64,000 nt of DNA from Acidobacteriota bacterium (GTDB lineage Bacteria > Acidobacteriota > Terriglobia > Terriglobales > SCQP01): contig JAJYIU010000001.1 of assembly GCA_021789895.1 (NCBI GenBank), positions 124,001 to 188,000 on the forward strand, in the 5' to 3' direction. Below, one piece after another: positions 19,380 to 59,607 of this stretch. The notes under the pieces are model-generated. The model saw only the letters and a program-made list of their open reading frames with translations, ran no database searches and had not been told where the DNA came from. Both the position numbers and the translations under genes were made by a program. Each line of letters begins with the position of its first letter. Position 1 is the first letter of the stretch.

Positions 19380-19409
19380 TTGATATTGGCGGATGGATGC
19401 GGCTATAAA
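19380..19409 (+). promoter_or_regulatory. Promoter of the second VWFA-related gene
   Basis: TTGATA (19380-19385), 18-bp spacer, TATAAA (19404-19409), 31 bp upstream of the ATG at 19441. It supports that ATG over the in-frame ATG at 19393, which lies inside the spacer. Confidence 0.55.
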
Positions 19410-19440
19410 GGAAGCGGTGAAGGTTAGGGACGTAATCGGT

Positions 19441-28022: not shown

Positions 28023-28151
28023 CTTGCTTCCTTCCTCGCCGCCTCTACTATTCTCGCGCAGCAGCGCTGAAATCCCTACTGGCAGCCTGCCCCCGATGGC
28101 GTCCCGGCTGCGCTTATTTCTGCGGTCTTCAGAGTGCTAGTTTATATAGTC

Positions 28152-31198: not shown

Positions 31199-32793
31199 GC
31201 CGCGCCGGGAATGGTATGCGCCGGGGCATGTCGCAGCCGCGTGTCGGGCAGCGGCCAGCTTTGCTCCACTTGGAAGCGCTCGACTGCGCGCAGCACGAAG
31301 GCCGGCGGTTGGGTTGGACGCGCGCGCACGTGAAAGAAAGAAGCGTCATCCACATCCTGTAAAACCCAGGCGGGGCGACGTTCATGGCGGTCGGCCTGGA
31401 TTTCGATATTGCTCATCGCCAGCCCGCGCACGTGCCGAATATAAAAGCCGTGCGCCGGCATGGGGCCCATCTTGCCGGGACCGGGATAGCCGCGTTCCCG
31501 CTCCGGCGGGATGATCCGCGCGTCGGCGACGACCGGGTCGGCGGCGTGCGTAATCAGAATGTCATTCATCCGCACGTCTTCAATGGCGTGTCCGGGAATG
31601 CCGCTCAGGATCGAGCACAAGCGCGGATTGGCTCCGTTGCAGGTGATGTTGGAGAGCGCGACGCGGCGCAGTACGCCAATCGGGTAGCCGGCGGGCACGC
31701 GCATGCGGCGGCCCAGGCGCAGGTAGATGGGCGCGCTGCTGATGTGGCGCATGCTCAGATTCGAGATGGTGACGTCTTCCAGGTGGGCGCCATCTACGGT
31801 TTCGAGCGCCAGCCCCTGGCAGCGTTCGAAGACGCAGTTGTTGATGGTGATGTTTTTGAAGCCGCCGGTGGATTCGGTGCCGAATTTGATGCGCCCGGTG
31901 TGCGGCCGGCGTCCGCGAGCGAAAAGCTTGAAGCTGGCATCGAGCAGCGTGCCTTCCTGGAAGCCGCCGGTGACGAAGCAGTTGACGAGGGTGACGTACT
32001 CGGTGGGGCGGGCATAGCCGAGGGCATACGAGCTTTTGAGACAGATGCCGTCGTCCCAGGGCGAGTTGACGCTGGTGTTCGAAATGCGGACGTTGCGGCA
32101 GCAGTCGATATCCATGCCGTCGCGGTTCGTATCAATCATCAGGTTATCAATCGTCAGGTTGTCCACGCCGGTGGCGAGAAGGCCGAAATGGCCGCCGTGC
32201 AGGATGGAGAAGTCGCGCAGCAGCACGTTATGGCAATTTTTCAAGCCGATGGTTTTATCGGCCACGCCGGGCTGTTTTTGATCAGGACCGGGGCCGTAGC
32301 CTTTGCTCAGGCCGCGTCCCCAGATCAGGCCGGGGCCGAGGATGGCGAGATCGTGCAAGCCCTCGCCCCATAGCAGGCTGTTGTGCCAGTGGCGATGGCC
32401 GAAATCTTCGTAATGGCCGGCGGCGGGGTTGGGCTCGGGCGGATCGTAGCCGCCGGGGGAGTTGGCGGGGGGCGGGTCGGCGGCGATCAGCGTGGCGCCT
32501 TCGCCAAGATATAAAGTGACGCGGCTGGCAAGATGGATGGAATAGCTCAAATACCTGCCGGCGGGAAAAACCACCCGGCCGCCGCCGGCGCGCGCGGCGG
32601 CGGCGATGGTGCGATTGATGGCGGCGGTGTCGAGCGCCTGTCCATCGCCGCGGGCGCCGTAATGGCGCACGTTGAACTCCGGCGCGGGCGGTTGGTTCGG
32701 GGCCACGGTGGCGCCGGCCTGCGGCCGCATGCCCATGGCCGCGGTTCCGGCGCCGGACCACTTGAGGAAATTTCTGCGAGATGCGTTTCGCAT
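31192..32793 (-). CDS. Secreted glycoside hydrolase family 28, rhamnogalacturonan-type
   Basis: Beta-helix protein of 533 residues. ATG 32793 has GGAG eight bases upstream and opens a Tat signal (MRNASRRNFLKWSGAGTAAM). The domain begins EFNVRHYGARGDGQALDTAAIN. The active-site block NRDGMDIDCCRNVRISNTSV, the acid pair WDDGICLKSS and the later KFGTESTGGFKN are typical of the GH28 subgroup found with rhamnogalacturonan-active enzymes. Second gene of a three-gene operon, 19 bp after GH106 and overlapping the next gene by 7 bp. Confidence 0.92.
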   Translation of the reverse strand: MRNASRRNFLKWSGAGTAAMGMRPQAGATVAPNQPPAPEFNVRHYGARGDGQALDTAAINRTIAAAARAGGGRVVFPAGRYLSYSIHLASRVTLYLGEGATLIAADPPPANSPGGYDPPEPNPAAGHYEDFGHRHWHNSLLWGEGLHDLAILGPGLIWGRGLSKGYGPGPDQKQPGVADKTIGLKNCHNVLLRDFSILHGGHFGLLATGVDNLTIDNLMIDTNRDGMDIDCCRNVRISNTSVNSPWDDGICLKSSYALGYARPTEYVTLVNCFVTGGFQEGTLLDASFKLFARGRRPHTGRIKFGTESTGGFKNITINNCVFERCQGLALETVDGAHLEDVTISNLSMRHISSAPIYLRLGRRMRVPAGYPIGVLRRVALSNITCNGANPRLCSILSGIPGHAIEDVRMNDILITHAADPVVADARIIPPERERGYPGPGKMGPMPAHGFYIRHVRGLAMSNIEIQADRHERRPAWVLQDVDDASFFHVRARPTQPPAFVLRAVERFQVEQSWPLPDTRLRHAPAHTIPGAAW

Positions 32794-32812
32794 GGCAAGT
32801 TCTCCAATGTTT

Positions 32813-35728
32813 TTATGACTGCAATGAATTCGGAAGGCGGGGCGCCAGCCGGACCGGGCCGAGCAGGCCGCAGGGCGGGATCTGGCGCGGCGCCCGGGCG
32901 CCATACTGGCCCCAGCGGATGCCGAAGCGCTCGGCCACCGGCTTCCAGTCGGGGCGCGGCGCCAGCCGCTGGTGCTCAATCCACAAATTCCCGACCCGCA
33001 CGATCACGCGGTTGCGCCCGGCGCGCAGTGCCGGCCCGCAGACGAGTTGGCGGCGTCCGAACCAGGCGGCGCCGAGCGCGGCGCCGTTGAGTTCCGCCTC
33101 GGCGGTTTCATGCACCCGGCCCAGATCGAGCATCCATTCGAAGGCGTCGTCCGGACGGCGCGGCAGCTCGAATTCCAGCGAGTATTCGCCCCAGCCGCTG
33201 TAGCCGCGCCCTTGCGGAAACTCGTTCCAGGAGCGCAAGCGATCAAGCCGTTGCGCCGGGCCACCGCCTAGTTGCAGCGTCCAAGGGCCGGACAGTGGAA
33301 CCGGCGCCGGCAGCTTTCGCGAGGCCGCGCCGGAAGGAGAAGGTTTCCTGGCTCCGCGCGGCGAGGGTTGGCTGCGATCGAAGCGTATGAAACAGCTCTC
33401 ATACGGTTCGAAATTCAATGCGACCTCGGTCTGCCGGGCGCGCGTCTGCCGATCGCGGGTAAAAGCGTAGTCCCATAGGCGATGCATCTTGCCGCTGATC
33501 GGCTCCATGCGCTCGGGCGCGAAATGGCCGCAGGCGAAACGGTAGCGCAGTTGCCGGGCGGCGGCGGAAATATTGGCGAGGAAATAAATTTCTTCATTTG
33601 GGGTGCGGCGATGGCAGTAGCCGACGTTGGCGCGCGCTGCTTGCAGGCCGCCCGCGGCGCCGGCCAACTCGCAATCGGGCGCGAGGCGGCGCGTGAGTTC
33701 GGCCCTGGCCTCCGGCCATCCGGCCGCATGCATGACCCACCCTTGACCGCAGCGCGCGGCGGCTCCGGCGGCAGGCGGCGCGCCGCCGCCCAATCGGGCC
33801 AGCAGTTGCCGCAATTGCGCGGCCTGGGCGGCGCGATCTTGGTATCCCGGCGCGGCGCCGGGCAGGCGGGAGATGAAAATGACGCTGCCGCCCGATTGCG
33901 CAAACTCCAGGATTTTCGCCAAAGATTCCGGCGGCATGCGCTCGACCGCGGGCAGCAGCAGAATGGACCATGCGGCGCCGCCCGCGAGCAGCCGTCCGTG
34001 TTCGACCTGCGCCTGCTGCTGCAGCGCGCGATCGTTGACGAAGTCGAAATCGTAGCCGGCGCGGCGCAGCTCCAGGTAGGGTTTGGCGCCGAGCTGCCGC
34101 TCGATTTCCTGATCCATTCGCACCGAGCCGGCGGCCAGCCGCGCATAGAGGTCGGCGAGCGGCAGATAAACTGCGATCGGATTGACCGCCTGCCCCTGCT
34201 GCAGCACGGCCGCTACTCGCTGGATGTAACTGGTCAAATGGTGGTAGTGAGGCCACCAGATGTTGTTGTGGTTGACCATGGTCGAGGCATAAAACACCCA
34301 GCCCGGACGGCCGGCCTCGGGCGGCGAGTATGAATAGCCCTGGTTGACGGCCTGCTGGATGCCGTCGAGAAATTGCGCGTCGCTGGCCGCCTTCATCATC
34401 TCCAGCGTCACCAGGTAGCGCGGCTGGCGCAGCCAGGTATAGCTCTCGCAGGAAACCACCGGTTTGGAGTAGATGTGCGCGGCTGAAGCCGCCAGGCGGC
34501 GGTGGCCGATGTCAATTCGAAAGCGGTCGGCGAACTCGCCGCTTTCGCCCTCGGGAATATCGGCGCATCCGTAGCCCTCGAGCACGTCGCCCATGGCGCC
34601 ATGCGCCTGGATGCGTGCGGTGAGGCCGCGCGCATGGCTCCAGTCGCGCAGCCGGGAGAAGAAGTTTTCAACGATCAACTCCGAGAGGGTGAGGTGATAA
34701 TCGTGGCGCACCGCGCCGGTTTCGGTTCCGCAATCCTCGATCAAGGCGGGCAGCAGCGGGATGAGATCGTAGCCGCGGCGGCGGCGGAATTCGGCCGGCA
34801 GCGCCGGAGTCCAGTCGGCGCCAAAAACCTCCAGGCTATCGCAGAAGGCGCTGGCAAAGGGCGCGGGAGGAGTTTCGGCCGCCAGCCCGCGCAAGACTTG
34901 GTCGCCGGCGGCTTCGAGGAACCAATCCATGGCGCGCCGGTTGAAGTGGTCAATCACCCAGCCCTCCATGCCCAGGGTGGGGCGCTTGACGGTTTGACGG
35001 GTGGGCGTATCGAAAAACAGCAGGATGCGCCAGCGGCCGGCGGGCAGGCGCGCGCGCAAGCGCCCGCCTGCCAGGGCGCGCGGCAGGACGCGAACCCCCG
35101 TAAGCTGCATGCGTCCGGCGGCATCGGCCGGGACGGCCAGCGCGGCAAAAGGGCGCCCGGTGTCGGCCAGTTCCGGCATGAGATTCCAATCCAGTTGACC
35201 GGGGCCGGAATCGCGCGAGCGCCAGGTTAATTTACGGGCGGCCAGCGCGGCGGGAATGAACGGACCGCCGTAGGGCCAGCCGCTGCCCAGCGTCAAGTCG
35301 AACTGCAGACCAAGGCGTCGGGCGCTGCGGACGGCGCTGCGCAGGCGCTCGAACCAGGCCGGAGAGAAATAGGGCAGGTTTACGATCCCCTGGCGGGGAT
35401 TGTCCACGGCCAGCGGATAGACGGGCTGGAGCTCGGCGCCGCGGAGACCGGCGGCGCGCATCAGCGCAAATTCCCGCTCGATTTCACCCTCTGTTACCGC
35501 ACCGCCAAACCACCACCAGCGCGTCATCGGCCGGGCAGGTTCGCCGGGGTTCAGAAACGCCTGCAGGGCGTTTGCCCGCAGGCTGGCGCGAATGTCCGCT
35601 GCTGCCCCGGACGGCGCCGGCGATGCCTGGGGCGAATACAGGTGAAGTCCCGGCGCCGCCGCCAGCGCCAGCCCGCTGCGCTTGAGAAAATCACGGCGGC
35701 GGCAGCGGCTGCGTGCATCCGCATCCAT
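32813..35728 (-). CDS. Secreted GH106-type alpha-L-rhamnosidase
   Basis: Large protein of 971 residues with a Tat signal (RCRRRDFLKRSGLALAAAPG). The N-terminal catalytic TIM-barrel fits family 106: RPMTRWWWFGGAVTEGEIE, AGLRGAELQPVYPL, FSPAWFERLRSAVRSARRLG and LTLGSGWPYGG. Later IQAHGAMGDVLEGYGCADIPEGE marks the middle of the barrel, and a C-terminal beta-sandwich with LDLGRVHETAEAELNGAALG resembles a galactose-binding fold. Such enzymes remove rhamnose from rhamnogalacturonan. First gene of the operon with GH28 and MGH1-like. Upstream sits an AACCGGTT palindrome (35765-35772), a weak regulatory candidate. Confidence 0.88.
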   Translation of the reverse strand: MDADARSRCRRRDFLKRSGLALAAAPGLHLYSPQASPAPSGAAADIRASLRANALQAFLNPGEPARPMTRWWWFGGAVTEGEIEREFALMRAAGLRGAELQPVYPLAVDNPRQGIVNLPYFSPAWFERLRSAVRSARRLGLQFDLTLGSGWPYGGPFIPAALAARKLTWRSRDSGPGQLDWNLMPELADTGRPFAALAVPADAAGRMQLTGVRVLPRALAGGRLRARLPAGRWRILLFFDTPTRQTVKRPTLGMEGWVIDHFNRRAMDWFLEAAGDQVLRGLAAETPPAPFASAFCDSLEVFGADWTPALPAEFRRRRGYDLIPLLPALIEDCGTETGAVRHDYHLTLSELIVENFFSRLRDWSHARGLTARIQAHGAMGDVLEGYGCADIPEGESGEFADRFRIDIGHRRLAASAAHIYSKPVVSCESYTWLRQPRYLVTLEMMKAASDAQFLDGIQQAVNQGYSYSPPEAGRPGWVFYASTMVNHNNIWWPHYHHLTSYIQRVAAVLQQGQAVNPIAVYLPLADLYARLAAGSVRMDQEIERQLGAKPYLELRRAGYDFDFVNDRALQQQAQVEHGRLLAGGAAWSILLLPAVERMPPESLAKILEFAQSGGSVIFISRLPGAAPGYQDRAAQAAQLRQLLARLGGGAPPAAGAAARCGQGWVMHAAGWPEARAELTRRLAPDCELAGAAGGLQAARANVGYCHRRTPNEEIYFLANISAAARQLRYRFACGHFAPERMEPISGKMHRLWDYAFTRDRQTRARQTEVALNFEPYESCFIRFDRSQPSPRGARKPSPSGAASRKLPAPVPLSGPWTLQLGGGPAQRLDRLRSWNEFPQGRGYSGWGEYSLEFELPRRPDDAFEWMLDLGRVHETAEAELNGAALGAAWFGRRQLVCGPALRAGRNRVIVRVGNLWIEHQRLAPRPDWKPVAERFGIRWGQYGARAPRQIPPCGLLGPVRLAPRLPNSLQS

Positions 35729-39404: not shown

Positions 39405-41279
39405 TCAAGTTTGCTTGGCGGCGTTGCGGGCGAGCATGCCGGGAGCGAGCAGCGCGAGATGGGCTTCAATTTCGCGGCTGATGGCGCGGGCGGCGATGGG
39501 CAGGCCGTCATAGCAGCGCACCGGCTGAAGCCGGGGCGCCATTTCCGGCGCCAGGTCGGTTTTCAACACATCGAGCATCTGGCCGTCGCGATTCTGCTCG
39601 ACCACGAAGATGACCTCGTGGGCTCCGACAAACGCGGCGACTTCGGGCCCGAAGGGAAAAGCGCGCAGGCGCAGGTAACCGGCCGCGATGCCCGCCTCCT
39701 CCTGCAGTTGATCGAGCGCCTCGAGCACCGGGTAATGGCTGCTGCCGAAGGCAATTACCCCGACGCGTCCGGCGCCGGCGCGCTCGCGCACGGCGGGCGG
39801 GACCAGCGCGCGGGCAGTCTCGAATTTGCGCCGCAGGCGGTCCATGTTGCCGGCGTAATCGTGGGGCCGCTCGGAGTACTGGGCGCGATCATTGTGGCCG
39901 CTGCCGCGGGTGAAGTAAGCCGCGTTGCGGTGGGCGGTGCCGGGCAGGGTGCGCCAGGGGATGCCGTCGCCATCCACGTCGCGATAGCGCGCGAATTCAC
40001 CCAGGCGGTTGAGATCATCCGCCGTCAGCACCTTCCCGCGCTGCAGCGGGCGAGCCGGATATTGGAAAGCCGGCGATATCCAATTATTCATGCCGAGATC
40101 GAGATCGCTGAGCACGAACACGGGGGTTTGCAACTGTTCGGCGAGATCGAAAGCGGCGATGGCATGTTCGTAGCACTCGGCCACGCTGCCGGGAAATAGC
40201 ATGAGATGGCGGGTATCGCCATGGGAGAGTTGGGCGATGCAGCCGATATCGCCTTGGGCCGTGCGGGTGGGCAGCCCGGTGGAGGGGCCGACGCGCTGTA
40301 TATCGAAAATGACGGCGGGTATTTCAGCGTAATAACCCAGGCCGGCAAACTCGGCCATGAGGCTGATACCGGGGCCGGAGGTGGAAGTCATGGCGCGGGC
40401 GCCCATCCAGCCCGCGCCCAGCACCATGCCGACGGCGGCCAATTCATCTTCGGCCTGAATGACGGCGAAGGTGGCTTTGCCGGTGGCCGGATCGATCCGG
40501 TGCTTGCGCAGCAGATCGATCAGGGATTCGCAGAGCGAACTGGAGGGGGTAATCGGATACCAGGCGGCGACGGTGACGCCGGCGAACATACAGCCGAGCG
40601 CGGCGGCGGTGTTGCCGTCAATGATGATCTGGCCGGCGGTTTCATGCATGCGTTCGAGGCGGCAGCGATCACGCTTGACCAGATTCTGCCGGGCGTAGTC
40701 GAGGCCGGCGCGCACCGCCGCCCAGTTCAAATCGGCGGCCTTGGGCTTGCGGCGGAACTGGCGGCGCACTGCCGTTTCCACCTCGGCGATATCCATCTGC
40801 AAGAGGTGGGCGAGCACGCCAACGTAGATCATCGTCCGTACCAGCTTGCGCAGCTTGGCATCGGCGGCGATGCCGGTCACCAGCTTGTCGAAGGGGACGG
40901 GATAGAAGATCAGGTCGGTGCGCTGCTTTTCAAGCTGCAGCGGCTGATCGTAAACCACCGCGGCGCCGGGGATCAGACCGGCGACGTCTTCTTGCGCGGT
41001 TTCCGGATTCAGCGCCACCAGAAAATCGGCATCCTGCTTGCGGCCGATATAATGCCGCCGGCTGGCGCGGATGGTGTACCAGGTGGGCAGGCCGGCAATG
41101 TTCGAGGGAAACAGGTTTTTGCCGGAAACCGGGATGCCCATCTGGAACATGGTCCGCAGTACGACCAGGTTCGAGGATTGGCTGCCGGAGCCGTTCACGC
41201 TTGCGACTTGAAGGCTGAAATCGTTGACCAGCTCACCAATTACGGGCGGAGCTACCGCCTCCATTTCCGATGTAGCCAC
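39405..41279 (-). CDS. korA: 2-oxoacid:ferredoxin oxidoreductase, fused gamma-alpha subunit
   Basis: Protein of 624 residues. The N-terminal gamma domain has FSLQVASVNGSGSQSSNLVV (residues 18-37) and the alpha pyrimidine-binding domain begins near residue 220 with AWYPITPSSSLCESL and STSGPGISLMAEF. GTG 41279 is chosen as start because AAGGTGG lies seven bases before it and it gives the family-like VATSEMEAVAPPVIGEL. The longer ATG at 41348 would fall on the promoter -35 box. Partner of KorB, acting in the cytoplasm with ferredoxin. Confidence 0.92.
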   Translation of the reverse strand: MATSEMEAVAPPVIGELVNDFSLQVASVNGSGSQSSNLVVLRTMFQMGIPVSGKNLFPSNIAGLPTWYTIRASRRHYIGRKQDADFLVALNPETAQEDVAGLIPGAAVVYDQPLQLEKQRTDLIFYPVPFDKLVTGIAADAKLRKLVRTMIYVGVLAHLLQMDIAEVETAVRRQFRRKPKAADLNWAAVRAGLDYARQNLVKRDRCRLERMHETAGQIIIDGNTAAALGCMFAGVTVAAWYPITPSSSLCESLIDLLRKHRIDPATGKATFAVIQAEDELAAVGMVLGAGWMGARAMTSTSGPGISLMAEFAGLGYYAEIPAVIFDIQRVGPSTGLPTRTAQGDIGCIAQLSHGDTRHLMLFPGSVAECYEHAIAAFDLAEQLQTPVFVLSDLDLGMNNWISPAFQYPARPLQRGKVLTADDLNRLGEFARYRDVDGDGIPWRTLPGTAHRNAAYFTRGSGHNDRAQYSERPHDYAGNMDRLRRKFETARALVPPAVRERAGAGRVGVIAFGSSHYPVLEALDQLQEEAGIAAGYLRLRAFPFGPEVAAFVGAHEVIFVVEQNRDGQMLDVLKTDLAPEMAPRLQPVRCYDGLPIAARAISREIEAHLALLAPGMLARNAAKQT

Positions 41280-41319
41280 GAGTCTTCCACCTTTATCGAA
41301 AGAAGGATCTTTCTTTTCA

Positions 41320-41348
41320 ATTATACGCAGGGTTGTGCCGGAACCCAA
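41320..41348 (-). promoter_or_regulatory. Promoter of the korA-korB operon
   Basis: TTGGGT (41348-41343), 17-bp spacer, TATAAT (41325-41320) on the minus strand, about 40 bp upstream of the GTG start. Confidence 0.65.
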
Positions 41349-41459
41349 CTATCCGGGCGGATGACCACAATCATAGTAAGCGAGTCAGCGGGAATCACTT
41401 CCACGAGGGAGGATGCGTTGGGGCCTCAGGGCTGCACCGCGAATGGCGATATTTTCCAG

Positions 41460-41488
41460 TTGCCAGCGTGGCGCGGCTGGTTTAAATA
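41460..41488 (+). promoter_or_regulatory. Probable promoter of the glycerate kinase gene
   Basis: TTGCCA (41460-41465), 17-bp spacer, TAAATA (41483-41488), 75 bp upstream of the ATG at 41564. Confidence 0.5.
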
Positions 41489-41563
41489 CAAGAGCGGGAT
41501 ACCGACGAGAGGCGGCAGCCGAGCGCTGCGGACGCCAGGGTGGAAAATTAAGGCGTGAAGCTC

Positions 41564-42949
41564 ATGTCAGCGAAACGCGCGCGGTCGAGACAACTGGCCA
41601 TGAAGCTGTTGCGGGAGACGCTGCAGGAGTTGGCGCCAGCACGTCTGCTGGCGCAACAGATCGAGCGCCAAGGCAGCAGGCTGCTCCTCCCTCCAGCGCC
41701 GCCGGTCGCAGGCGGCGCGTCCGAGGCGCAGGACGGCGGCGCGGAATACGATCTCGGTCGCTACCGGCAACGCCTGGTCCTGGCGTTGGGCAAGGCCGCG
41801 GTGCCGATGCTCAACGCCTGGCGCGAACTGGCCGCGACGCAATCTCCCGGGCCGGCATGGGATGCCATCATCGTCTCCGCCGACCCGCGGCGGGCGGCGC
41901 CGGTGGCGCGGAACGGCTCGCTGCAGCAATTTTTTGGCGGCCATCCCGAACCCAATGCCGACAGCCGCGCCGGCGCTGAGGCTATGCTGGCGGCGGCGCG
42001 CGGGCTGCAGCCGCCGGCGCTGCTGGTGGCGCTGGTCTCAGGCGGCGGCTCGGCGATGGCGGAAAGCCCGCTGCAAGCGGATTGGAGTCTGCTCGAGATG
42101 CAGGAACTCTATCGTCAACTGGTGCGCTGCGGCGCGCCGATTGGCGAGATCAATAGCGTGCGCAAGCACTTGTCGCGCTTCAAAGGCGGTCGCCTGGCGG
42201 AAGCTGCGGCGGAGCTCGACGGGGTGGATCAATTGTCACTCCTGCTCTCGGACGTGCCCCCCGGAGAGGCGGACAGCATATCTTCCGGGCCCACGCTGCC
42301 CGACCGCTCCCGCGTCGAGGATTGCTACCGGATTTACGCTCAGCGGCAGTTGCGGCTGCCGGCGAGGATGGCCGCCATGCTGGAAGGGAAACAGTTGGCG
42401 GAGACGCCCAAGCCCGAAGCCGCCTGTTTTCGGCGGGCGCGCTGGCGCGTGGTAGGCGACAATGCGCTGGCCTGTGAGATGTTGGCGCGGCGGGCGCGCG
42501 CACACGGCCTGGCCGCGGTGATCGAGCATGGCGCGGACGAAGCCGATTACCGCGAAGCGGCGGCCCGCCTGCTGCAGCGCTGGCGCGAGTTGCGGCGGGA
42601 AACCCCCAACGCCTGCCTGATTGCCGGGGGCGAAGTGCGCGTGGCGGTGCCGGAGGAAGCCGGGCAAGGCGGGCGCAATCAGGCTTTTGCGCTGGAATGC
42701 GCGCGCCGGCTGATGCCGGAGGAAGAGGGCTGCATCGCCAGCCTGGGCACGGATGGCGTGGACGGCAGCTCGCCGGCGGCAGGGGCGATCGTGGATGCGA
42801 CCACCCGGGAACGGGCGCGGCGGGCGAATTTCGATCTGGAGCAGGCGGCGGCGAAGTTCGATGCGTACCCGCTGCTGGCGGCAATTGGCGACGCGATTGA
42901 AACCGGGCCGACCGGCAATAATCTGCGCGATCTGCGGCTGCTGCTGTGA
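41564..42949 (+). CDS. Glycerate 2-kinase, DUF4147/MOFRL family
   Basis: Cytoplasmic kinase of 461 residues that phosphorylates D-glycerate, typically after uronate, glucarate or tartronate breakdown. The N-terminal domain has LGKAAVPML and ALVSGGGSAMAE; the C-terminal MOFRL domain has GTDGVDGSSPAAGAIVD and IAGGEVRVAV. ATG 41564 is chosen; GTG at 41555 would begin only three codons earlier. It is 123 bp upstream of the unassigned glycosidase gene, separated from it by that gene's own promoter and LacI-type operator, so it is in the same locus but a different transcript. Confidence 0.9.
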   Translation: MSAKRARSRQLAMKLLRETLQELAPARLLAQQIERQGSRLLLPPAPPVAGGASEAQDGGAEYDLGRYRQRLVLALGKAAVPMLNAWRELAATQSPGPAWDAIIVSADPRRAAPVARNGSLQQFFGGHPEPNADSRAGAEAMLAAARGLQPPALLVALVSGGGSAMAESPLQADWSLLEMQELYRQLVRCGAPIGEINSVRKHLSRFKGGRLAEAAAELDGVDQLSLLLSDVPPGEADSISSGPTLPDRSRVEDCYRIYAQRQLRLPARMAAMLEGKQLAETPKPEAACFRRARWRVVGDNALACEMLARRARAHGLAAVIEHGADEADYREAAARLLQRWRELRRETPNACLIAGGEVRVAVPEEAGQGGRNQAFALECARRLMPEEEGCIASLGTDGVDGSSPAAGAIVDATTRERARRANFDLEQAAAKFDAYPLLAAIGDAIETGPTGNNLRDLRLLL

Positions 42950-42980: not shown

Positions 42981-43009
42981 TTGACAGCGCGTGAAATCGT
43001 TTACATATT
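42981..43009 (+). promoter_or_regulatory. Promoter of the glycosidase gene
   Basis: TTGACA (42981-42986), 17-bp spacer, CATATT (43004-43009), 63 bp upstream of the ATG at 43073. A LacI-type palindrome sits in the spacer. Confidence 0.65.
42992..43005. promoter_or_regulatory. LacI-family operator in the glycosidase promoter
   Basis: TGAAATCGTTTACA differs at only two positions from TGCAAACGTTTACA found upstream of the second TonB receptor. Central CG and flanking TG/CA fit LacI-family sites. The site covers the spacer and the start of the -10 box. The likely regulator is the LacI gene at about 49933-50967. Confidence 0.7.
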
Positions 43010-43072: not shown

Positions 43073-46048
43073 ATGCAACCACAGCCAGCCAGCGGCAGCA
43101 GCGATCGAACGCTACCATCGAGCCATCGTATGCGAGGACGGGCGCTCTGGCCGGGCGCGGCGGTTGCCATTGCGGCCGCGCTGCTGGCCTCGCTGGCGGC
43201 CGCGGCCCAGGATGTGGCGGTGGGGCCGCCGGCAGGCCCGAGCGCGCCGGCGCCTCTGGTCCGGATCGAAGCCGGGGTCAAGAATCCGCAGTTGGCGTTT
43301 GCGCGGCGGCGGCTGGAGCGCGCACTCAAGGCCGGCGGTTACAAGCTGGGTCCCGGCGGCAAATTCCTGAGACTAGGCCTGGCGGCAGGGCCGGCGGAAA
43401 GTTTTCGCATTCAACCCGGCGCGGAGGGGGTGACGGTCAGCGGGGGCGATGCGCGCGGGTTGATGTACGGCGTGCTGCGGCTCGCCGAGGAGCTGCGCTT
43501 GGGCGTCCGTCTCAGCGCGATCCCGGCCGAAAGCGAGCAGCCGGCGCTGGCGATTCGCGCAATCAAGTACAATCTGCCGCTGCCGGGCACCGATTATCTG
43601 CCGCACCGCACGCTGCGGCGGCACGCATGGTTCTGGCGGCTCGATTACTGGCGCGCCTACCTCAACACGCTGGCGGAAGACCGCTACAACGCGCTCGAGC
43701 TGTGGAGCGCAGAGCCGTGGGAAGAAATGGTGCAGCTGCGGCGATTTCCCGAGGCCAACGCACTGCCGGCGGCGGAGCTGGAGCAGCATATCCGTTTTTT
43801 CCGGCGCATTTTCCGCATGGCGCATGACCGCGGGATCGATATTTACCTGGTGACCTGGAACGTGGATCTGGGGCCGGCGTTTGCCCGGGCGCACCATTTG
43901 CCCAGCCGCAACGTCAACAATTTGCTGGTGCGGCGTTATTTGCGCGCCGCGATCCGCACCCTGCTGCGCACCTATCCCGACCTGACCGGCCTGGGCACGA
44001 CGCAAGGCGAGCAGATGGGGGTGATTCCGCCGCGCCAGCGCGCCGGCTGGGTGGCGCGGGTGTATTTCCGCGCGATCGAGCAATCGGGGCGCAAGCGCGT
44101 GCCCTTCATCCTGCGCTACTGGGGCGGGACGCCCCAGGCGACCGAGCGCGCCGCAGCGCAGTATCATCGCGGGCCGGTCTATCTGGACATCAAATACAAC
44201 GGCGAGCACGCGTTTTCCTCGCCGCGCTATCATCTGGCCAATCTGGCCTGGCTGCGCCAGGCGCACCGGTATCGCATTCTCTGGCACCTGCGCAACGACG
44301 ATATCTTTCTGCTGCGCTGGGGCTCGCCCGAATTCGTGCGCGAGCTCATGCGCCATCTCGGCCGCACCTACAGCGCCGGTTTTTCCTTCGGCTCGGAAGG
44401 CTTCGTGCCGGGCGCCGACGACTACGATACGCCGGCGGCGCAGGCGCGGCAGCATGCGCGCTATGAGTTTCAGAAGCAGTGGTGGGAATACGCGCTGTTT
44501 GGCCGGCTGGGCTACCGGCCGGAGGCGGCGACGCGGCGATGGCGGCAGGCTTTCCGCGCGCGCTACGGCGCCGCCGGCGACGCGCTCTACGACGCCGGCC
44601 GGGCGGCGGGGCGGGTGGCGCCGCTGGCGACTTCGTTCCATTGGAATTACATGAACGGCGACTGGATGGTGGAGGGCGGCATCGGCAGTTGGAATACTTC
44701 CGCCGAGCAGCCGCGGGTGAACTACCGCCGCGCCGAGCTGTATCACGACATCCGCGCCTGGATTTTCAACAACACGATTGACGGGGGGCTGGAAAATATC
44801 ATGCAGTTCGCGGGGCGGCGGCTGGCGGGCGGGACACGCCCCGCGGGCCGGCGCTCGCCGCGGGAGGTGGCGAACGAGCTGGAAGTGCTGGGGCGCGAGG
44901 CGATGGCGGCAAGGGCGATTCCGATCGCGGCCCGGGCGCGCGGCTGGGGGGCGCGCCAGGACGACATTTGCTGGGGCGAGCTGAGCCGGTATTACGCGGA
45001 AAAGATCCGCGCCGCGGCCAGCCTGGCGATCTACCTGTTCAGCGGGAAGAGCATAGACCGGCAACGCGGGCTGCGGCACCTGGCGCTGGCGCTGAAGTAC
45101 TGGAAGGCGCTGGCGCGCGACGGGGACGCGCACTATCGGGCGCACGAAGTCTGGCAATTCGGGGTATTCAACTGGGGGCGATACACGCCGATGGTGGCGC
45201 ACGACCTGGCGGTTGCACGCGGGCTGCAGCCGTATGCGCGGCATGCGCAGCGCTGGCAGGTGGCGGGAAAAGGGTTGACACTGCAAGTGGTTTCTCCCTT
45301 GAGCCAGGCCGGGATGCAGCCCTGGCTGCTCTACGCCGACGCACAACTGAACCGGGCGCGGGTGCAGCGGGCGCTCCACGGGGGGGCCGGCCTGGACTGG
45401 CGGCGGCCATTGCCGGCGCCGCCGGCGGGAGAGGCATGGCTGCTGGAAATCAGCGTTCCGGACGGGGCGGAGGTGCGGCTGAACGGAGCGCCGGCGACAG
45501 GCGGAAGAATCGCCTTACGGCCGCATGTCAATGCAGAGAGTTTCCGGTTGCAGCACGGGGGCGAGCTGAGCGCGCGGATTCCGGGCGCGGGCGTGCCGGT
45601 GCTGAGCCTGATCACCCTCGGAGGAAAAGCGCAGGCGAGCGTGCCGGCACGGACCTGGGCGCCGGCGGAGGCGAGCGGGGGGACGGTGCGGCTGGCGCAA
45701 GCGATCCAATACCCGCGCGACTGGGAGAACGTACGCCGCCAGGTCTTCCATCGGGGCTCGGCCGAGTATCGTTTGCGGCTGGCGCATGCCGGCTTGTACC
45801 GGCTGGACGTGAAGCTGCAAGCGGGCGGGACCGGGCGGCGGCAGGGACTCTCGTACAGCGTGGATCGAGACAATCCGTATGGGTTTATCAGGGCGAGCGG
45901 GGCCGCAGGCTGGGCGCGCGCCGGCGCGCTCGTGGCGCTAGGGGCGGGCGAACACACCGTCACGCTGTACTGGATGGCGCCGGGGGTGACGGTCACGGGG
46001 GTGCGGTTACGGGCGGCGGCGCACTGGCCGAAGCCGCGGCGGCGGTGA
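43073..46048 (+). CDS. Secreted glycosidase-like protein, family not assigned
   Basis: Protein of 991 residues. GGGAG precedes the ATG. The signal/anchor segment is at residues 27-46 (WPGAAVAIAAALLASLAAAA). An N-terminal alpha-glucuronidase/GH20-type beta-sandwich (about 60-165) has SGGDARGLMYGVLRLAEEL. A TIM-barrel-like domain (about 195-480) has strands NALELWS, IDIYLVTWNV, PFILRYWG and YLDIKYNGEH, with candidate catalytic acids Glu313 (QGEQ), Glu378 (NGEH) and Glu442 (GSEG). A helical region follows, then a C-terminal beta-sandwich like CBM35 (to 985, GVTVTGVRL). Nearest known relatives are probably GH67/GH115-like alpha-glucuronidases, but the fit is partial. Controlled by a LacI-type operator and next to a uronate-type transporter. 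Confidence 0.75.
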   Translation: MQPQPASGSSDRTLPSSHRMRGRALWPGAAVAIAAALLASLAAAAQDVAVGPPAGPSAPAPLVRIEAGVKNPQLAFARRRLERALKAGGYKLGPGGKFLRLGLAAGPAESFRIQPGAEGVTVSGGDARGLMYGVLRLAEELRLGVRLSAIPAESEQPALAIRAIKYNLPLPGTDYLPHRTLRRHAWFWRLDYWRAYLNTLAEDRYNALELWSAEPWEEMVQLRRFPEANALPAAELEQHIRFFRRIFRMAHDRGIDIYLVTWNVDLGPAFARAHHLPSRNVNNLLVRRYLRAAIRTLLRTYPDLTGLGTTQGEQMGVIPPRQRAGWVARVYFRAIEQSGRKRVPFILRYWGGTPQATERAAAQYHRGPVYLDIKYNGEHAFSSPRYHLANLAWLRQAHRYRILWHLRNDDIFLLRWGSPEFVRELMRHLGRTYSAGFSFGSEGFVPGADDYDTPAAQARQHARYEFQKQWWEYALFGRLGYRPEAATRRWRQAFRARYGAAGDALYDAGRAAGRVAPLATSFHWNYMNGDWMVEGGIGSWNTSAEQPRVNYRRAELYHDIRAWIFNNTIDGGLENIMQFAGRRLAGGTRPAGRRSPREVANELEVLGREAMAARAIPIAARARGWGARQDDICWGELSRYYAEKIRAAASLAIYLFSGKSIDRQRGLRHLALALKYWKALARDGDAHYRAHEVWQFGVFNWGRYTPMVAHDLAVARGLQPYARHAQRWQVAGKGLTLQVVSPLSQAGMQPWLLYADAQLNRARVQRALHGGAGLDWRRPLPAPPAGEAWLLEISVPDGAEVRLNGAPATGGRIALRPHVNAESFRLQHGGELSARIPGAGVPVLSLITLGGKAQASVPARTWAPAEASGGTVRLAQAIQYPRDWENVRRQVFHRGSAEYRLRLAHAGLYRLDVKLQAGGTGRRQGLSYSVDRDNPYGFIRASGAAGWARAGALVALGAGEHTVTLYWMAPGVTVTGVRLRAAAHWPKPRRR

Positions 46049-46213: not shown

Positions 46214-46229
46214 ATTAGAAAATTCTAAT
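46214..46229. promoter_or_regulatory. AT-rich palindrome ATTAGAA-AA-TTCTAAT
   Basis: Perfect 7-bp arms with a 2-bp centre, unusual in GC-rich DNA. A possible second operator or nucleoid site upstream of the receptor promoter. Confidence 0.4.
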
Positions 46230-46382
46230 AATCGAATCGCGTAATTTTTCCCTCCACCATTTTTCAGATGGTTTGGATATGGTGGCTGCGGCCGGACGCG
46301 TGCCTGGGCGGCGGCGAATTTGAAGGCCAGAGACAAACCCCGGCGCGCGCCGCAAGCGGCGGGGGAGAAGGAAAAGAATTCA

Positions 46383-46425: not shown

Positions 46426-46443
46426 GGTGCAAACGTTTACACC
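46426..46443. promoter_or_regulatory. LacI-family operator upstream of the second TonB receptor
   Basis: GGTGCAAACGTTTACACC is a near-perfect palindrome: the two halves differ at one position pair. It matches LacI-type sites with TGnAAACGTTTnCA. It sits between the promoter and the start codon, so binding would block transcription. The LacI gene follows the receptor gene. Confidence 0.8.
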
Positions 46444-46486: not shown

Positions 46487-49400
46487 ATGAAGATGCTACG
46501 GCAAGCGTGCAAGTGCGTGGCCTGCGGTTGGAGCCTGATTGGCCTGCTGATGCTCGGCCTGGCCGCCGGGCAGCAAACCACCACGGTGCAGATCACCGGC
46601 CAGATTACCGACCCAAGCGGGGCGGCGGTGCCGGGGGCGAGGGTGCAGGCGCTGCAAACTGCGACCGGGTATGTGGCGACGGCGACCAGCGGGGCGCAAG
46701 GGTTGTATATCCTGCCCAACCTGCCGCTCGGACCCTACCAGCTTACGGTCAAAGCCAAGGGCTTCAAGACCTATGTGCAGAAAGGCATCACGCTGGTGGT
46801 GGGGGTGAACCCCAGCATCGGGGTGAAGCTGCAGGTGGGCTCGAACGTGCAAACGGTTTCGGTAACCGCCAACAGCGCCCAGATCGAGACGCATAACGCT
46901 TCGGTCAACCAGGTGATTGACCAGCGCCGGATTCTGGCGCTGCCGTTGAACGGACGCAACGTTGCCGACCTGGTGCGGCTGTCGGGCGCTTCGACGCCGC
47001 AGAACGGCTCGGGCGACATCAACAGCAGCAAGAATTTCAACTACGAATCGGTGACCACCTCGGTGGCGGGGAGCCAGGGCAACGGCACCAACTACCTGCT
47101 CGACGGCGCCGACAATATTGACCATTTCACCAATGTCAACCTGCCCTTTCCTTTTCCCGATGCGACGCAGGAGTTCAGCGTTCAGACCAGCGATTTAAGC
47201 GCGCAGTACGGGGTGCATCCGGGCGGGGTGGTGAACATCATCACCAAATCGGGGACCAACCAGTTTCACGGCGACCTGTTCGAGTTCGTGCGCAACTACA
47301 AATTCAATGCGGCGCCGACGATCATCAACTACAAGGGCAAAGCGTCGGCTTTTGCCAAGCATCGCGACTCGCTGAAGCGCAATCAATTCGGGGGCACGAT
47401 CGGCGGACCGATCATCCCGAACAAGCTGTTTTTTTTCGGCGGCTTCCAAGGGACGATCTTGCGCAGCGAGCCCTCGAACCATTCCACCCACGTGGCCACG
47501 GCGGCCACGCTGGCGGGCGATTTCACCGCGATGGAGTCGCCGGCCTGCACCGGGAAATCGAGCGAGATTCAGCTCAAGGCGCCGTTTGTCAACGATATGA
47601 TCGCCCCGAGCAGCTACAATGCGGCGGCGCTGGCGATTTTAAAGGACGTGCCCACTTCCAGCGATCCCTGCGGGCTGATCTATTACGGCATTCCGAACAA
47701 CCAGACCGAGCAGCAGTACATCGGGCGGCTGGACTATACGATCAGTTCGAAGCAATCGCTGTACTCGCATTATTTTCTGGTCAACTACAACCTGCCGCCG
47801 TTCTACCAGGGCAACCTGCTGACCTCGACCGCCTATGGGCAAGGGATCCGCAGCCAATCGCTGGTAATCGGCGACAACTACAATTTCTCGCCCAATCTGA
47901 TCAATGTGCTGCACCTGAGCGGCAACCGGCTGCGGATCAACCGCGGTCCGGCGTCGAACCTGCCCAATCCGACCTCATTTGGGGTCAACATCACCAGCCT
48001 GGTGCCGAATTTCATCGACACCAGCATCAGCAACTATTTCAGCACCGGCTGCGGCATCTGCTCGCCGGGGCATTTCAACTCCAATACCATCGGGGCGGCC
48101 GACGACGTGACCTGGATGTCGGGGGCGCACGAGTTCGGCTTCGGCGGCGAGTACATGCGCGGGCAGGTGAACGAGCTCAGCAACTTCAAATCCAACGGCC
48201 AGATCAGCTTCAACGGCAGCGTCACCGGCAACGGGCTGGCGGATTTCCTGATGGGCAACGTCAACGACTTCACCCAGGGCATGGCCGAGCAAGAGAACTG
48301 GCGGGACAACTACATCGGCTTGTACGTACGCGACGTCTGGCATATAGCGCCCAACTTCACCCTGAATGCCGGCCTGCGCTGGGACCCTTACTTCCCGGAA
48401 GTGGACAAGTATCATCGCGGCAATCACTTCGACCTCAACGCCTATCGCGCCGGGCAATTCAGCACGGTTTATGTCAACGCGCCCGCGGGTTTATTCTTTG
48501 CCGGCGACGGGCAGACGCCGACCGCCTACACTCACAGCCACCTGCTCAATTTGAGCCCGCGGTTGGGCTTCATCTGGGATCCGTTTGGCGACGGGAAGAC
48601 TTCGATTCGCTCGGGCTTCGGCATCATTTACGATTACCCCGAAGAATTCTTCTTCGACCGCTTCGCCGACGACGCGCCCTTCGGCAGCTCCATTGACATT
48701 CCCAAGCCGAAGGGCGGCTTGAGCAATCCCTTCCAGGGCTATCCGGGCGGCAATCCATTTCCGCTGCCGTTCCCGCCGCCCAAGAACGCCACCTTCCCGG
48801 CATACGGGGTCTATGTCAACCTGCCGCTGTCCATCCGGCCCACGTACGAGTCGCAATGGAATTTGACCATCCAGCGCCAACTGGCGGCCAACACCGTCTT
48901 CGAGATCAGCTATCTGGGCAACAAAACGACGCATCTTTGGCTGCAGCGGGAAGAGAACCCCGCCTATGCGATGACGGCAACGCAATGCGCGGCGATCGGC
49001 ATTTCCGCGAAGAACTGCAGCAGCACCAGCAGCAACAACCAACGGCGGCTGCTGTACCTGATCAATCCGGCCGCCAATTTTGGCCAGGGGTATTCCAGCC
49101 TTTCGCTGGCCGACGACGGCGGCAACGCCAACTACAACGCCCTGCTGGTGAGCCTGAATCACCGCTTCAGCAAGAACTTCACGGTGCTGGCGAATTACAC
49201 CTATTCGCATTGCTTCGACTATGCCGACTTCGGCGGCGAAGTCTCGGGCCAGAATTACGAGAACACCTATAACCGCAACATTGACTACGGCTCCTGCGGT
49301 TTCGACCTGCGGCACGTCTTCAACGGATCGTTCGTGATCCAGACGCCGGTCACCGGGCCGGCCTGGGAGCGAGCCATCTTCGGCCATTGGCGGTTATCGG

Positions 49401-49861
49401 GCATCCTGAATATTCACAGCGGCGGGCCGTACACGGTGGTCTCGGGCGAGGATTACGCGCTGAGCGCCACCGGCAACCAGCGCCCCAACCTGATTGCCAA
49501 CCCGATTCCGCTGCAACCGCAAAGCTACCAGGAATGGTTCAATCCGGCGGCGTTCGCCTGCGTGGTGCCGGGCAAAGATCAAGCCCATTGCGGCTACGCC
49601 ACGACGCCCTTCGATTACGGCAACGCGGGACGCAACTTCCTGTACGCGCCCAACGCCTGGAACCTGGATACGGGGCTGAGCCGTTATTTCCCGGCTTTCA
49701 AGGAAGGGCAGCAGATCGAGCTGCGGGTGGAAGGCTTCAACATCTTCAATCATGCCAACCTGAACGGGCCGCAGGCGAACATGCACAGCAACTATTTTGG
49801 CCAGATCACCGGCGGCAGCGGGCCGCGCGTGATGCAAGCCGCGGTGAAGTTCATTTTCTAG
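46487..49861 (+). CDS. TonB-dependent outer-membrane receptor, LacI-controlled
   Basis: Protein of 1124 residues. ATG 46487 has AGGAAG upstream and opens a signal peptide (CGWSLIGLLMLGLAAGQ). A carboxypeptidase-regulatory domain follows (VQITGQITDPSGAAVPGARV), then a plug with PLNGRNVADLVRLSGAS and NYLLDGADNIDHF, and a long barrel ending AAVKFIF. It probably imports oligosaccharides or uronides made by the upstream glycosidase. Upstream lie a promoter and a LacI-type operator. The LacI gene follows directly on the same strand. Confidence 0.94.
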   Translation: MKMLRQACKCVACGWSLIGLLMLGLAAGQQTTTVQITGQITDPSGAAVPGARVQALQTATGYVATATSGAQGLYILPNLPLGPYQLTVKAKGFKTYVQKGITLVVGVNPSIGVKLQVGSNVQTVSVTANSAQIETHNASVNQVIDQRRILALPLNGRNVADLVRLSGASTPQNGSGDINSSKNFNYESVTTSVAGSQGNGTNYLLDGADNIDHFTNVNLPFPFPDATQEFSVQTSDLSAQYGVHPGGVVNIITKSGTNQFHGDLFEFVRNYKFNAAPTIINYKGKASAFAKHRDSLKRNQFGGTIGGPIIPNKLFFFGGFQGTILRSEPSNHSTHVATAATLAGDFTAMESPACTGKSSEIQLKAPFVNDMIAPSSYNAAALAILKDVPTSSDPCGLIYYGIPNNQTEQQYIGRLDYTISSKQSLYSHYFLVNYNLPPFYQGNLLTSTAYGQGIRSQSLVIGDNYNFSPNLINVLHLSGNRLRINRGPASNLPNPTSFGVNITSLVPNFIDTSISNYFSTGCGICSPGHFNSNTIGAADDVTWMSGAHEFGFGGEYMRGQVNELSNFKSNGQISFNGSVTGNGLADFLMGNVNDFTQGMAEQENWRDNYIGLYVRDVWHIAPNFTLNAGLRWDPYFPEVDKYHRGNHFDLNAYRAGQFSTVYVNAPAGLFFAGDGQTPTAYTHSHLLNLSPRLGFIWDPFGDGKTSIRSGFGIIYDYPEEFFFDRFADDAPFGSSIDIPKPKGGLSNPFQGYPGGNPFPLPFPPPKNATFPAYGVYVNLPLSIRPTYESQWNLTIQRQLAANTVFEISYLGNKTTHLWLQREENPAYAMTATQCAAIGISAKNCSSTSSNNQRRLLYLINPAANFGQGYSSLSLADDGGNANYNALLVSLNHRFSKNFTVLANYTYSHCFDYADFGGEVSGQNYENTYNRNIDYGSCGFDLRHVFNGSFVIQTPVTGPAWERAIFGHWRLSGILNIHSGGPYTVVSGEDYALSATGNQRPNLIANPIPLQPQSYQEWFNPAAFACVVPGKDQAHCGYATTPFDYGNAGRNFLYAPNAWNLDTGLSRYFPAFKEGQQIELRVEGFNIFNHANLNGPQANMHSNYFGQITGGSGPRVMQAAVKFIF

Positions 49862-49932
49862 CCCGGTGCGTTTCACGAGCAGGAACAGCAACGACAGGGA
49901 AACCCAGCCCGGAGAGCAACAATAAGGCCACG

Positions 49933-50967
49933 CTGCACGACGTCGCCCGGCTCTCGGGGGTTTCGATCGCCACCGTCAGCCGGGTGGTGAACGGGCATGA
50001 GCGGATTCTGCCGCGCACCCGCCGGCGGGTGATGCACGCCATCGAGCTGCTGGGCTACCAGCCCAACGTGCATGCGCGGCGGCTGGTGACGCAGTCGGTC
50101 GAGACGATCGGGTTCGTGCTCAGCAACCGCGATTTTCTCAACCCCTTTCACGCCGGGGTGCTGACCGGAGTGGAGCATGCCGCGGCGGCCATGCGGCACG
50201 AGATTCTTTACGCCTCGTGCGTGTATGCGCCCGAGACGCCAGCGGCGGAGCTGGAACTGCCGCCGGTGCTGCGCAGCCGCGGGCTGGTGGGGGGCGTCAT
50301 TCTGGCCGGCACGAACTATCCCAACCTGGTCCGCGCGGTGCGCGAGCGCGGCATTCCCTTCATCGTCTTCGGCAACAACCTGGTGCGGCAGCGGCAGTCC
50401 CTGCCCGACTGCTGCGTCTATTACGACGACGCCAGCAGCTCGCGCGAGCTGGTGGAGCGGCTGATTGCGATGGGACACCGGCGGATCGCTTTTGCGGGCG
50501 ACCAGCGCCAGCCCTGGTTTGCGCGCCGCCGCGCCGCATATCTGCAGGCGATGGCGCGGCACCATTTGGCGACGATGGAATACACCGCCGCGCTGGATTC
50601 GCCGCACAGCTATGTAGCCTATGGGGAGGCGGCGCTAGGCAAGCTGCTGGAGCGGCATCCGGCGCCCACGGCGCTGTTTGCCGGCAACGACAACATTGCC
50701 GTCGGCGCCTGGCGTCTGTGCCACCGGCGGGGAATCAAGATTCCGGGCGATTTGAGTCTGGCGGGGTTCGATGACCTGGAAATGGCGGTGCTGATCGATC
50801 CGCCGCTGACGACGGTGCGCGTGCCGGTGGACGAGGTGGGGCGCGCATGCGTGGAGATGATGGTGGAAAAGATCCGCCGGCCGGGGGAACCGCAAGCCAA
50901 TCGCAGCATACCCACGCACCTGGTGGAGCGAGCCTCCTGGGGGCCTCCGCCGCCGGAGGGCGCCTGA
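49933..50967 (+). CDS. LacI-family transcription regulator
   Basis: DNA-binding regulator of about 345 residues. The N-terminal helix-turn-helix and hinge are TLHDVARLSGVSIATVSRVVNG (in two pieces, TLHDVARLSGV and SIATVSRVVNG), followed by a periplasmic-binding-like effector domain (IGFVLSNRDFLNPFHAGVL, DDASSSRELVERL, ALFAGNDNIAVGAW, GFDDLEMAVLIDPPLTTVRV). No ATG, GTG or TTG lies in frame between the receptor stop (49861) and the HTH. The first in-frame possibility is CTG 49933 with AAGG five bases upstream; the next GTG (49984) would cut into the HTH. The GTG at 49866 opens a different frame that closes at 49925. So either the start is non-canonical or there is a one-base error or frameshift before the HTH. 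It probably controls the operators at 42992 and 46426. Confidence 0.85.
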   Translation: MHDVARLSGVSIATVSRVVNGHERILPRTRRRVMHAIELLGYQPNVHARRLVTQSVETIGFVLSNRDFLNPFHAGVLTGVEHAAAAMRHEILYASCVYAPETPAAELELPPVLRSRGLVGGVILAGTNYPNLVRAVRERGIPFIVFGNNLVRQRQSLPDCCVYYDDASSSRELVERLIAMGHRRIAFAGDQRQPWFARRRAAYLQAMARHHLATMEYTAALDSPHSYVAYGEAALGKLLERHPAPTALFAGNDNIAVGAWRLCHRRGIKIPGDLSLAGFDDLEMAVLIDPPLTTVRVPVDEVGRACVEMMVEKIRRPGEPQANRSIPTHLVERASWGPPPPEGA

Positions 50968-51025: not shown

Positions 51026-52312
51026 ATGAGCACTGCCCAATCCACTCCCACCCCCCGCGCCGGCGGCCGCAGCCATGTGCGCTGGGTCATTTGCGCGCTG
51101 CTGTTTCTGGCGACGGTGATCGCCTACGTGGACCGCAGCGTGCTGAGCTACCTGGAAAAATTCCTGGAAGGCATCATTCCCGGGCTGAACAGCGTGGCCT
51201 ATGGGCACATCACCGGCGATTTCATGTTTGCCTACATGATCGGCCTGGCAGTCGCCGGCGGACTGACCGACAAACTGGGGACGCGGCTGTCATTTGCGCT
51301 GGCGATTACGCTTTGGAGCGTTGCCGCGATGCTGCCCGGCGCGGCGCACAGCGTGACGGGGCTGGGGCTGGCGATGCTGCTGCTGGGGCTGGCGGAAGCG
51401 GCGAATTTTCCGGTCTGCATACGCACCGTGGCGGAGTGGTTTCCACAGGCGGAGCGGGCGCTGGCCACGGCGCTATTCAATTCCGGCGCCAACGTGGGCA
51501 CCCTGATCGTGCCCTTCGCAGTGGTGTTTTTCACCGCGCATTTCGGCTGGCGCGCGGCCTTCGTGGCCAGCGGCGCGATGGGCCTGATCTGGCTGGCCCT
51601 GTGGCTGCTGATCTACCGGCGGCCGGAACGGCATCCGCGCGTTTCAGCCGCGGAATTGCGGCATATCGAAGCCGGCCGGGGCGAGGCGGCGGCGAAAGTG
51701 CCCTGGACGAGACTGCTGCCGGTGAAGGAAACCTGGGCCTTTGCGGCGGGCAAGTTTCTGACCGATCCAATCTGGTGGTTCTGGCTCTTCTGGCTTCCGC
51801 GCTACCTGGAAGGCACATTCCATCTGTCCCTGGCGCAGACGCGGATCCCATTTGCGACGGTGTATCTGATCTCGATCGTGGGCAGCATCGCCGCCGGCTG
51901 GCTGCCGGCCTATCTGCTGCGGCGGGGGCATAGCGCCAATTTTGCCCGCAAACTGACGATGCTGATCTGCGCGCTGGCGGTGGTGCCGGTGATTATCGCT
52001 CCGTTCAGCCACCAGGTATGGGCGGTGGTGGGATTGGTGGGGCTGGCAGCGGCGGCGCATCAAGGCTGGTCGGCGAATATCTTTACGCTGCCCTCGGACG
52101 TATTTCCCAAGACGGCGGTGGCCAGCGTGGTGGGGATTGGCGGCTCGGCCGGCGCCTTCGGCGGCTGGCTGCTTTCCAATAGCGCCGGCTACATCATTCA
52201 TTGGACCCACAGCTATATGCTGCTGTTCGCCATCGCCTGCGGCGCCTACTTGATCGCCCTGCTGGCGATGCATGCGCTGATGCCGCGGTTGACCCCGGCG
52301 CAACTGGGCTAA
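51026..52312 (+). CDS. MFS transporter of the anion:cation symporter type, ExuT-like
   Basis: Inner-membrane permease of 428 residues with about twelve helices. The first helix region RWVICALLFLATVIAYVDR, the GLTDKLGTRLSFAL loop between helices 2 and 3, and LLLGLAEAANFPVCIRTVAEWFP match hexuronate/D-galactonate (ACS-family) permeases. It begins 58 bp after the LacI stop and completes the locus of glycosidase, receptor and regulator; hexuronate import is the most likely role. Confidence 0.88.
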   Translation: MSTAQSTPTPRAGGRSHVRWVICALLFLATVIAYVDRSVLSYLEKFLEGIIPGLNSVAYGHITGDFMFAYMIGLAVAGGLTDKLGTRLSFALAITLWSVAAMLPGAAHSVTGLGLAMLLLGLAEAANFPVCIRTVAEWFPQAERALATALFNSGANVGTLIVPFAVVFFTAHFGWRAAFVASGAMGLIWLALWLLIYRRPERHPRVSAAELRHIEAGRGEAAAKVPWTRLLPVKETWAFAAGKFLTDPIWWFWLFWLPRYLEGTFHLSLAQTRIPFATVYLISIVGSIAAGWLPAYLLRRGHSANFARKLTMLICALAVVPVIIAPFSHQVWAVVGLVGLAAAAHQGWSANIFTLPSDVFPKTAVASVVGIGGSAGAFGGWLLSNSAGYIIHWTHSYMLLFAIACGAYLIALLAMHALMPRLTPAQLG

Positions 52313-59359: not shown

Positions 59360-59607
59360 GAGCCGGCCTCGCCAACGCCGGTGAAGCGGCCGGCGGCTCG
59401 AATCCGTTTCCAGCGGCGCAGCGCCACCAGCGTCCAGATCGCCTCGGCGCCGCCGAAAGGCCAAGCGCCCTGCCGGAAGCCGTAGATCGAGCTAAGCACG
59501 CAAGCCCCGGCAAACGCCAGCACGTAAGCGGGGCCCCGTTCTTCCAAGGCATAGCAAAGCAGCATGGCGCAGACGCTAAATAACCCGAAGGCGGAGAGAA
59601 AACTCAT
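59356..59607 (-). CDS. Small membrane protein in the kdp operon
   Basis: 83 residues. ATG 59607 follows an AAGGA ten bases upstream. Two hydrophobic helices (LSAFGLFSVCAMLLCYAL and YVLAFAGACVLSSIYGFRQ) and a C-terminal WTLVALRRWKR basic end are visible. It lies between kdpC and the KdpD-like genes, overlapping the latter. Not KdpF by length or sequence; function unknown. Confidence 0.7.
   Translation of the reverse strand: MSFLSAFGLFSVCAMLLCYALEERGPAYVLAFAGACVLSSIYGFRQGAWPFGGAEAIWTLVALRRWKRIRAAGRFTGVGEAGS

Follow-up and report, generated by a model that had tools for sequence, protein, structure and literature searches.

A GH138-like glycosidase of Acidobacteriota in a pectin gene neighbourhood

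Within the window, by which is meant the whole 64,000-nucleotide stretch of acidobacterial DNA under analysis, the gene at 43073-46048 (+) encodes a glycosidase-like protein of 991 amino acids that is homologous to the GH138 enzymes, as seen with a family model (NF049878), a PDB entry (BPa0997) and the predicted fold. The protein is read here, with moderate confidence, as an exported retaining exo-alpha-D-galacturonidase for pectin (rhamnogalacturonan) fragments that branches off deeply, either alongside GH138 or inside it. The reading frame runs from an ATG to its stop codon with no internal stops and is present as a single genome copy at 100%. The gene is a conserved one, because its orthologues are 53-57% identical to it in nearly full-length alignments. 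A search of 200 genomes of the same order gave close orthologues (48-59% identity) in five more genomes, every one of them from the same family, while a more distant group with about 30% identity is carried by many members of the order's other main family. The clade to which the protein belongs spans Acidobacteriota, Armatimonadota and Planctomycetota, and the protein itself is probably exported.

The original prediction had been unable to place the protein in a CAZy family, a view partly overturned by its clear homology to GH138. Pfam alone was set aside as a classifier, as it leaves the protein unplaced with only a sub-threshold match to a GH20 N-terminal domain. The NCBIfam alpha-D-galacturonidase model of the GH138 kind, NF049878, covers residues 108-689 at E 8.9e-33, with a score of 113.3 bits that falls far short of the curated equivalog cut-off of 1300 bits, where equivalog denotes equal function to the model enzymes. 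A single-sequence phmmer search against the PDB finds the GH138 enzyme BPa0997 at E 7e-21. With a profile restricted to the clade of the protein (A5, 21 rows), BPa0997 alone in the PDB matches at an E-value of 0.001 or lower (3e-61), and the match falls into two blocks, the first covering the N-domain plus barrel and the second the helical region. This profile was preferred to an alignment, A3, whose PDB search (E 1e-141) was set aside as inflated since A3 includes classical GH138-type rows. Over the catalytic fragment the window protein is 23% identical to BPa0997, as against 43% for the classical acidobacterial GH138-type proteins. In the tree BPa0997 groups with these classical proteins (100/100), and a very long branch lies between that group and the window clade, with a support of 87/83 and a warning from the program about long branches. 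A third and still more distant group from the same order (L018, L028, L029 and L030), 17-19% identical to BPa0997, carries KxxAE/KYWGE-type motifs and gave no Pfam match in the two members scanned; it is perhaps another unassigned glycosidase group.

The relationship is also visible at the level of the fold. An AlphaFold2 model from a 30-row alignment (pLDDT 82.2, pTM 0.84), which replaced a first model of pLDDT 65 built on a poorer alignment, was used in the fold search that the original prediction had proposed as a check. Five BPa0997 chains head the Foldseek list (E 5e-35 to 1e-33, with a TMt of 0.79 for 6hzg); GH115 (E 2e-20) comes after them, followed by GH67 (7e-16) and GH20/GH84. The presence of these last families behind GH138, along with a weak GH20b match, bears out the alpha-glucuronidase/GH20-like architecture proposed earlier, and the anticipated TIM-barrel core and helical region are both seen in the model. 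The GH20b/GH67N-like N-terminal domain occupies residues ~60-155 (43250-43537, +), where the match to Pfam PF02838 is weak (E 0.0074, below cut-off) and where a relative, L047, matches the GH67 N-terminal domain PF03648 at E 6e-8. The catalytic TIM barrel is placed at residues ~160-482 (43550-44518, +) from the model strands and the alignment to BPa0997. It is followed by the helical domain, residues ~488-717 (44534-45223, +), which contains the second block aligned to BPa0997 and also a clade-conserved HWNYMNGDWxxEG block that sits in a stretch not aligning with that enzyme. The C-terminal domain, residues ~887-982 (45731-46018, +), had been described as CBM35-like; a beta-sandwich is indeed modelled there, and its similarity to CBM6/CBM35 chains in profile searches is weak (1uxz, E 1.8e-4; 2vzp, E 0.006). 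The C-domains of some clade members show a weak GH115_C-like similarity.

What, then, does the barrel hold in the way of catalytic machinery? In the GH138 enzyme BPa0997 the acid/base and the nucleophile of a retaining mechanism are reportedly E294 and E361, with R332 and R521 said to recognise galacturonate. In the phmmer alignment E313 (44009-44011, +; TTQGEQM) pairs with E294 (CLGEAIG), R348 (44114-44116, +) with R332, and E378 (44204-44206, +; KYNGEH) with E361 (KYNGES), the last of these reading KYNGS in the 6hze/6hzg chain, which is the E361S mutant of BPa0997. E313, R348, K374, N376 and E378 are invariant in all 20 clade rows that cover them. Homology with GH138 thus predicts E313 and E378 as the catalytic pair, and two of the three glutamates originally put forward as candidates find their role in this way. 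The third, E442 (44396-44398, +), which belongs to a GSE motif that follows the final strand of the barrel, is kept in 21 of 21 clade rows, so all three are conserved in the clade, yet it is clade-specific, with no counterpart found in classical GH138. By our numbering of the modelled strands the three residues follow barrel strands 4, 6 and 8, and all could face the active site. In the proposed mechanism, the TIM-barrel pocket would bind an alpha-linked galacturonic acid at the non-reducing end, with R348 touching its carboxylate; E378 would then attack C1 to give a glycosyl-enzyme, with E313 serving as acid/base. The bond cut would probably be an alpha-1,2 linkage to rhamnose, of the kind present in the backbone of rhamnogalacturonan-I (RG-I) or in chain A of RG-II.

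The pocket motifs are not those of classical GH138. Where classical GH138 enzymes read RAHDTD and HILANLEP the clade reads RYWGGT and HLRNDD, and the region of BPa0997 R521 fails to align with the clade profile; because of these differences the sugar or linkage may not be that of GH138. A tentative and clearly less probable reading is that the clade forms a glycoside hydrolase family of its own, a sister of GH138, whose third invariant barrel glutamate (E442) and rebuilt substrate pocket confer a pectin linkage or sugar specificity outside the known families.

The genes around the glycosidase bear on its substrate. A GH28 rhamnogalacturonidase of the BT4146 type (31192-32979, -; NF049898, 636.9 bits against a cut-off of 500) adjoins the sole GH106 alpha-L-rhamnosidase of the genome (32813-35728, -), and with two further GH28 genes at 28134-29555 (+) and 5701-7149 (-) the window accounts for three of the five GH28 loci present in the genome. 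The rhamnogalacturonidase and rhamnosidase genes lie on the opposite strand to the 991-residue gene, with housekeeping genes between, a point that counts against the galacturonidase reading. Also adjoining the rhamnogalacturonidase is an MGH1-like (mannosylglycerate-hydrolase-type) glycosidase (29552-31198, -), which scores far below the glucosylglycerate hydrolase cut-off and whose substrate may be pectic. At another locus of the genome a separate BT1017-like esterase (L053, G000:C7:19489-20544; 6goc, E 2.4e-9) stands beside an amidohydrolase-like ORF. The backbone of RG-I is built on a repeated GalA-alpha-1,2-Rha linkage. The simplest interpretation is an exo-alpha-galacturonidase that acts on fragments of RG-I, given that both a rhamnogalacturonidase and a rhamnosidase are encoded in the window and that neither of two hallmarks of RG-II breakdown, a GH140 apiosidase and a BT0996-type enzyme over its cut-off, turned up in the genome. 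For the latter reason a complete RG-II pathway is unlikely, and such a system was not retained as an explanation; RG-II or homogalacturonan fragments are nevertheless possible substrates.

The control of the gene appears to be shared with its downstream neighbour. A sigma-70-like promoter (TTGACA-17-CATATT, 42981-43009, +), of which there was none in 50 shuffles, precedes the glycosidase, and its spacer is overlapped by the LacI-type operator TGAAATCGTTTACA (42992-43005, +), an exact match to TGNAANCGNTTNCA. A second such operator, TGCAAACGTTTACA (46428-46441, +), lies upstream of an outer-membrane beta-barrel receptor resembling the TonB-dependent ones (46487-49861, +; Pfam OMP_b-brl_4, E 1e-201, and CarboxypepD_reg), whose ORF opens at 46268 and whose start is proposed, from the sequence, at the ATG at 46487. 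The window contains two exact TGNAANCGNTTNCA sites, as against none in any of 100 shuffles, and the whole genome has seven sites, in agreement with the operator originally proposed. A palindrome, ATTAGAA-AA-TTCTAAT, at 46214-46229 between the two genes was set aside as an operator of this kind, as its pattern is unlike the LacI type. Next come a LacI-family regulator (49870-50967, +; Pfam LacI and Peripla_BP_3; start uncertain, with the HTH from ~49930) and an MFS permease of galactonate/hexuronate type (51026-52312, +; Pfam MFS_1). The regulator probably controls the glycosidase gene together with the receptor gene, and the permease would take up the freed galacturonate. The earlier description of a nearby hexuronate-type permease stands as far as the MFS protein goes; its closest match is to the galactonate-transporter subfamily (TIGR00893, E 6e-66), below the cut-off. 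Upstream of the glycosidase lies a glycerate 2-kinase-type protein (DUF4147/MOFRL; 41555-42949, +), identified by family matches, and an ORF at 40206-41558 (+), with no family match and overlapping an oxidoreductase gene on the opposite strand, was treated as a shadow ORF. Elsewhere in the window, 19393-21681 (+) encodes a conserved-looking protein of 762 amino acids that has no Pfam match at E 0.001 and reads as VWA-type, and two consecutive ORFs at 57117-59464 (-), next to KdpC (59669-60256, -), both match the KdpD sensor domain, the pair being a duplicated or split potassium sensor.

Relatives of the protein offer further clues to the substrate. In one from Armatimonadota (L036; 3219-8186) and one from Planctomycetota (L044; 4816-9657) the GH138-like part is fused to a C-terminal esterase domain that is nearest to 6GOC (E 3e-22 and E 8e-32, respectively), the entry for BT1017, a pectin methylesterase with a Ser-Asp-His triad that serves in RG-II metabolism (PMC7939467). 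Offset counting places all three triad residues of BT1017, Ser, Asp and His, in the alignment with L036. A Pfam hint that these domains are CE15 glucuronoyl esterases was set aside, as BT1017 scores far better. L036 has a second alpha/beta-hydrolase match downstream, at residues 1444-1572. The fusions suggest that a single protein may trim the methyl-esterified galacturonic acid of pectin.

Such fusions, with the pectin context of the window, also speak against the doubtful alternative of an alpha-(4-O-methyl)-glucuronidase with a role like that of GH67/GH115, whose substrates would be glucuronoxylan or gum oligosaccharides. It draws on the place of GH115 and GH67 directly behind GH138 in the fold search, on the significant GH67 N-terminal match of L047, in whose vicinity a GH30-like gene weakly matches a glucuronoarabinoxylanase, and on a permease that could carry either hexuronate. 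Against this, Pfam and NCBIfam give no GH67/GH115 catalytic match up to E 10, and the clade profile finds BPa0997 alone in the PDB at E 0.001 or better. The release of a uronic acid, as first suggested, is likely, and galacturonic acid from pectin has better support as that product than has glucuronic acid derived from either glucuronoxylan or gum.

Would another pectic sugar suit the altered pocket motifs better? A change of specificity within the GH138 fold towards an L-rhamnose-, L-fucose- or L-galactose-type residue seems equally improbable. Its support comes from the loci of relatives: L033 (nearest relatives; L034/L041 group) has beside it genes for an RbsC-type permease, an L-fuconolactonase-like protein and a 2,4-didehydro-3-deoxy-L-rhamnonate-hydrolase-like protein, and L049 lies near a galactonate/rhamnonate-dehydratase-like gene. 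L039, for its part, neighbours an MFS permease related to that of the window and a galactarate-dehydratase-like protein. All these neighbour matches are below curated cut-offs, are indications only and come from outside the window's own genome; a rhamnose pathway would likewise be expected with GalA-Rha substrates, and neither R348 nor the catalytic pair varies in the clade. That the protein is no active hydrolase, but a carbohydrate-binding or otherwise degenerate one, as its low identity to characterised enzymes and CBM-like C-domain might hint, is very improbable given an intact ORF and a glutamate pair invariant across several phyla.

The galacturonidase reading gives a testable function to a conserved clade that Pfam leaves unnamed and, if true, would carry GH138-type chemistry beyond the gut Bacteroides in which it is known and into uncultured bacteria of the environment. 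How does the protein compare with the systems already described? With the GH20/GH84 hexosaminidases it shares a GH20b-type N-terminal domain and a barrel, but the sequence match is confined to the N-domain and the fold match is far behind that of GH138. The GH67/GH115 alpha-glucuronidases likewise combine an N-terminal domain with a TIM barrel, and weakly resemble some clade members in the C-domain, but the catalytic domain has no significant Pfam or PDB match to them and their fold match is again far behind. With GH138 (BT0997; BPa0997, PDB 6hzf/6hze/6hzg), where BT0997 cuts alpha-1,2-linked GalA in RG-II (PMC7939467), the fold, the domain order through the helical domain, the glutamate pair, the KxNGE motif and the arginine aligned with R332 are all held in common. 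The differences lie in an identity of about 23%, outside the equivalog cut-off, in the extra invariant E442, in other pocket motifs and C-terminal domains, and in the HWNYMNGDW block that takes the place of the unaligned BPa0997 stretch. The protein seems to be a new branch of an enzyme kind already known, and not a kind of its own.
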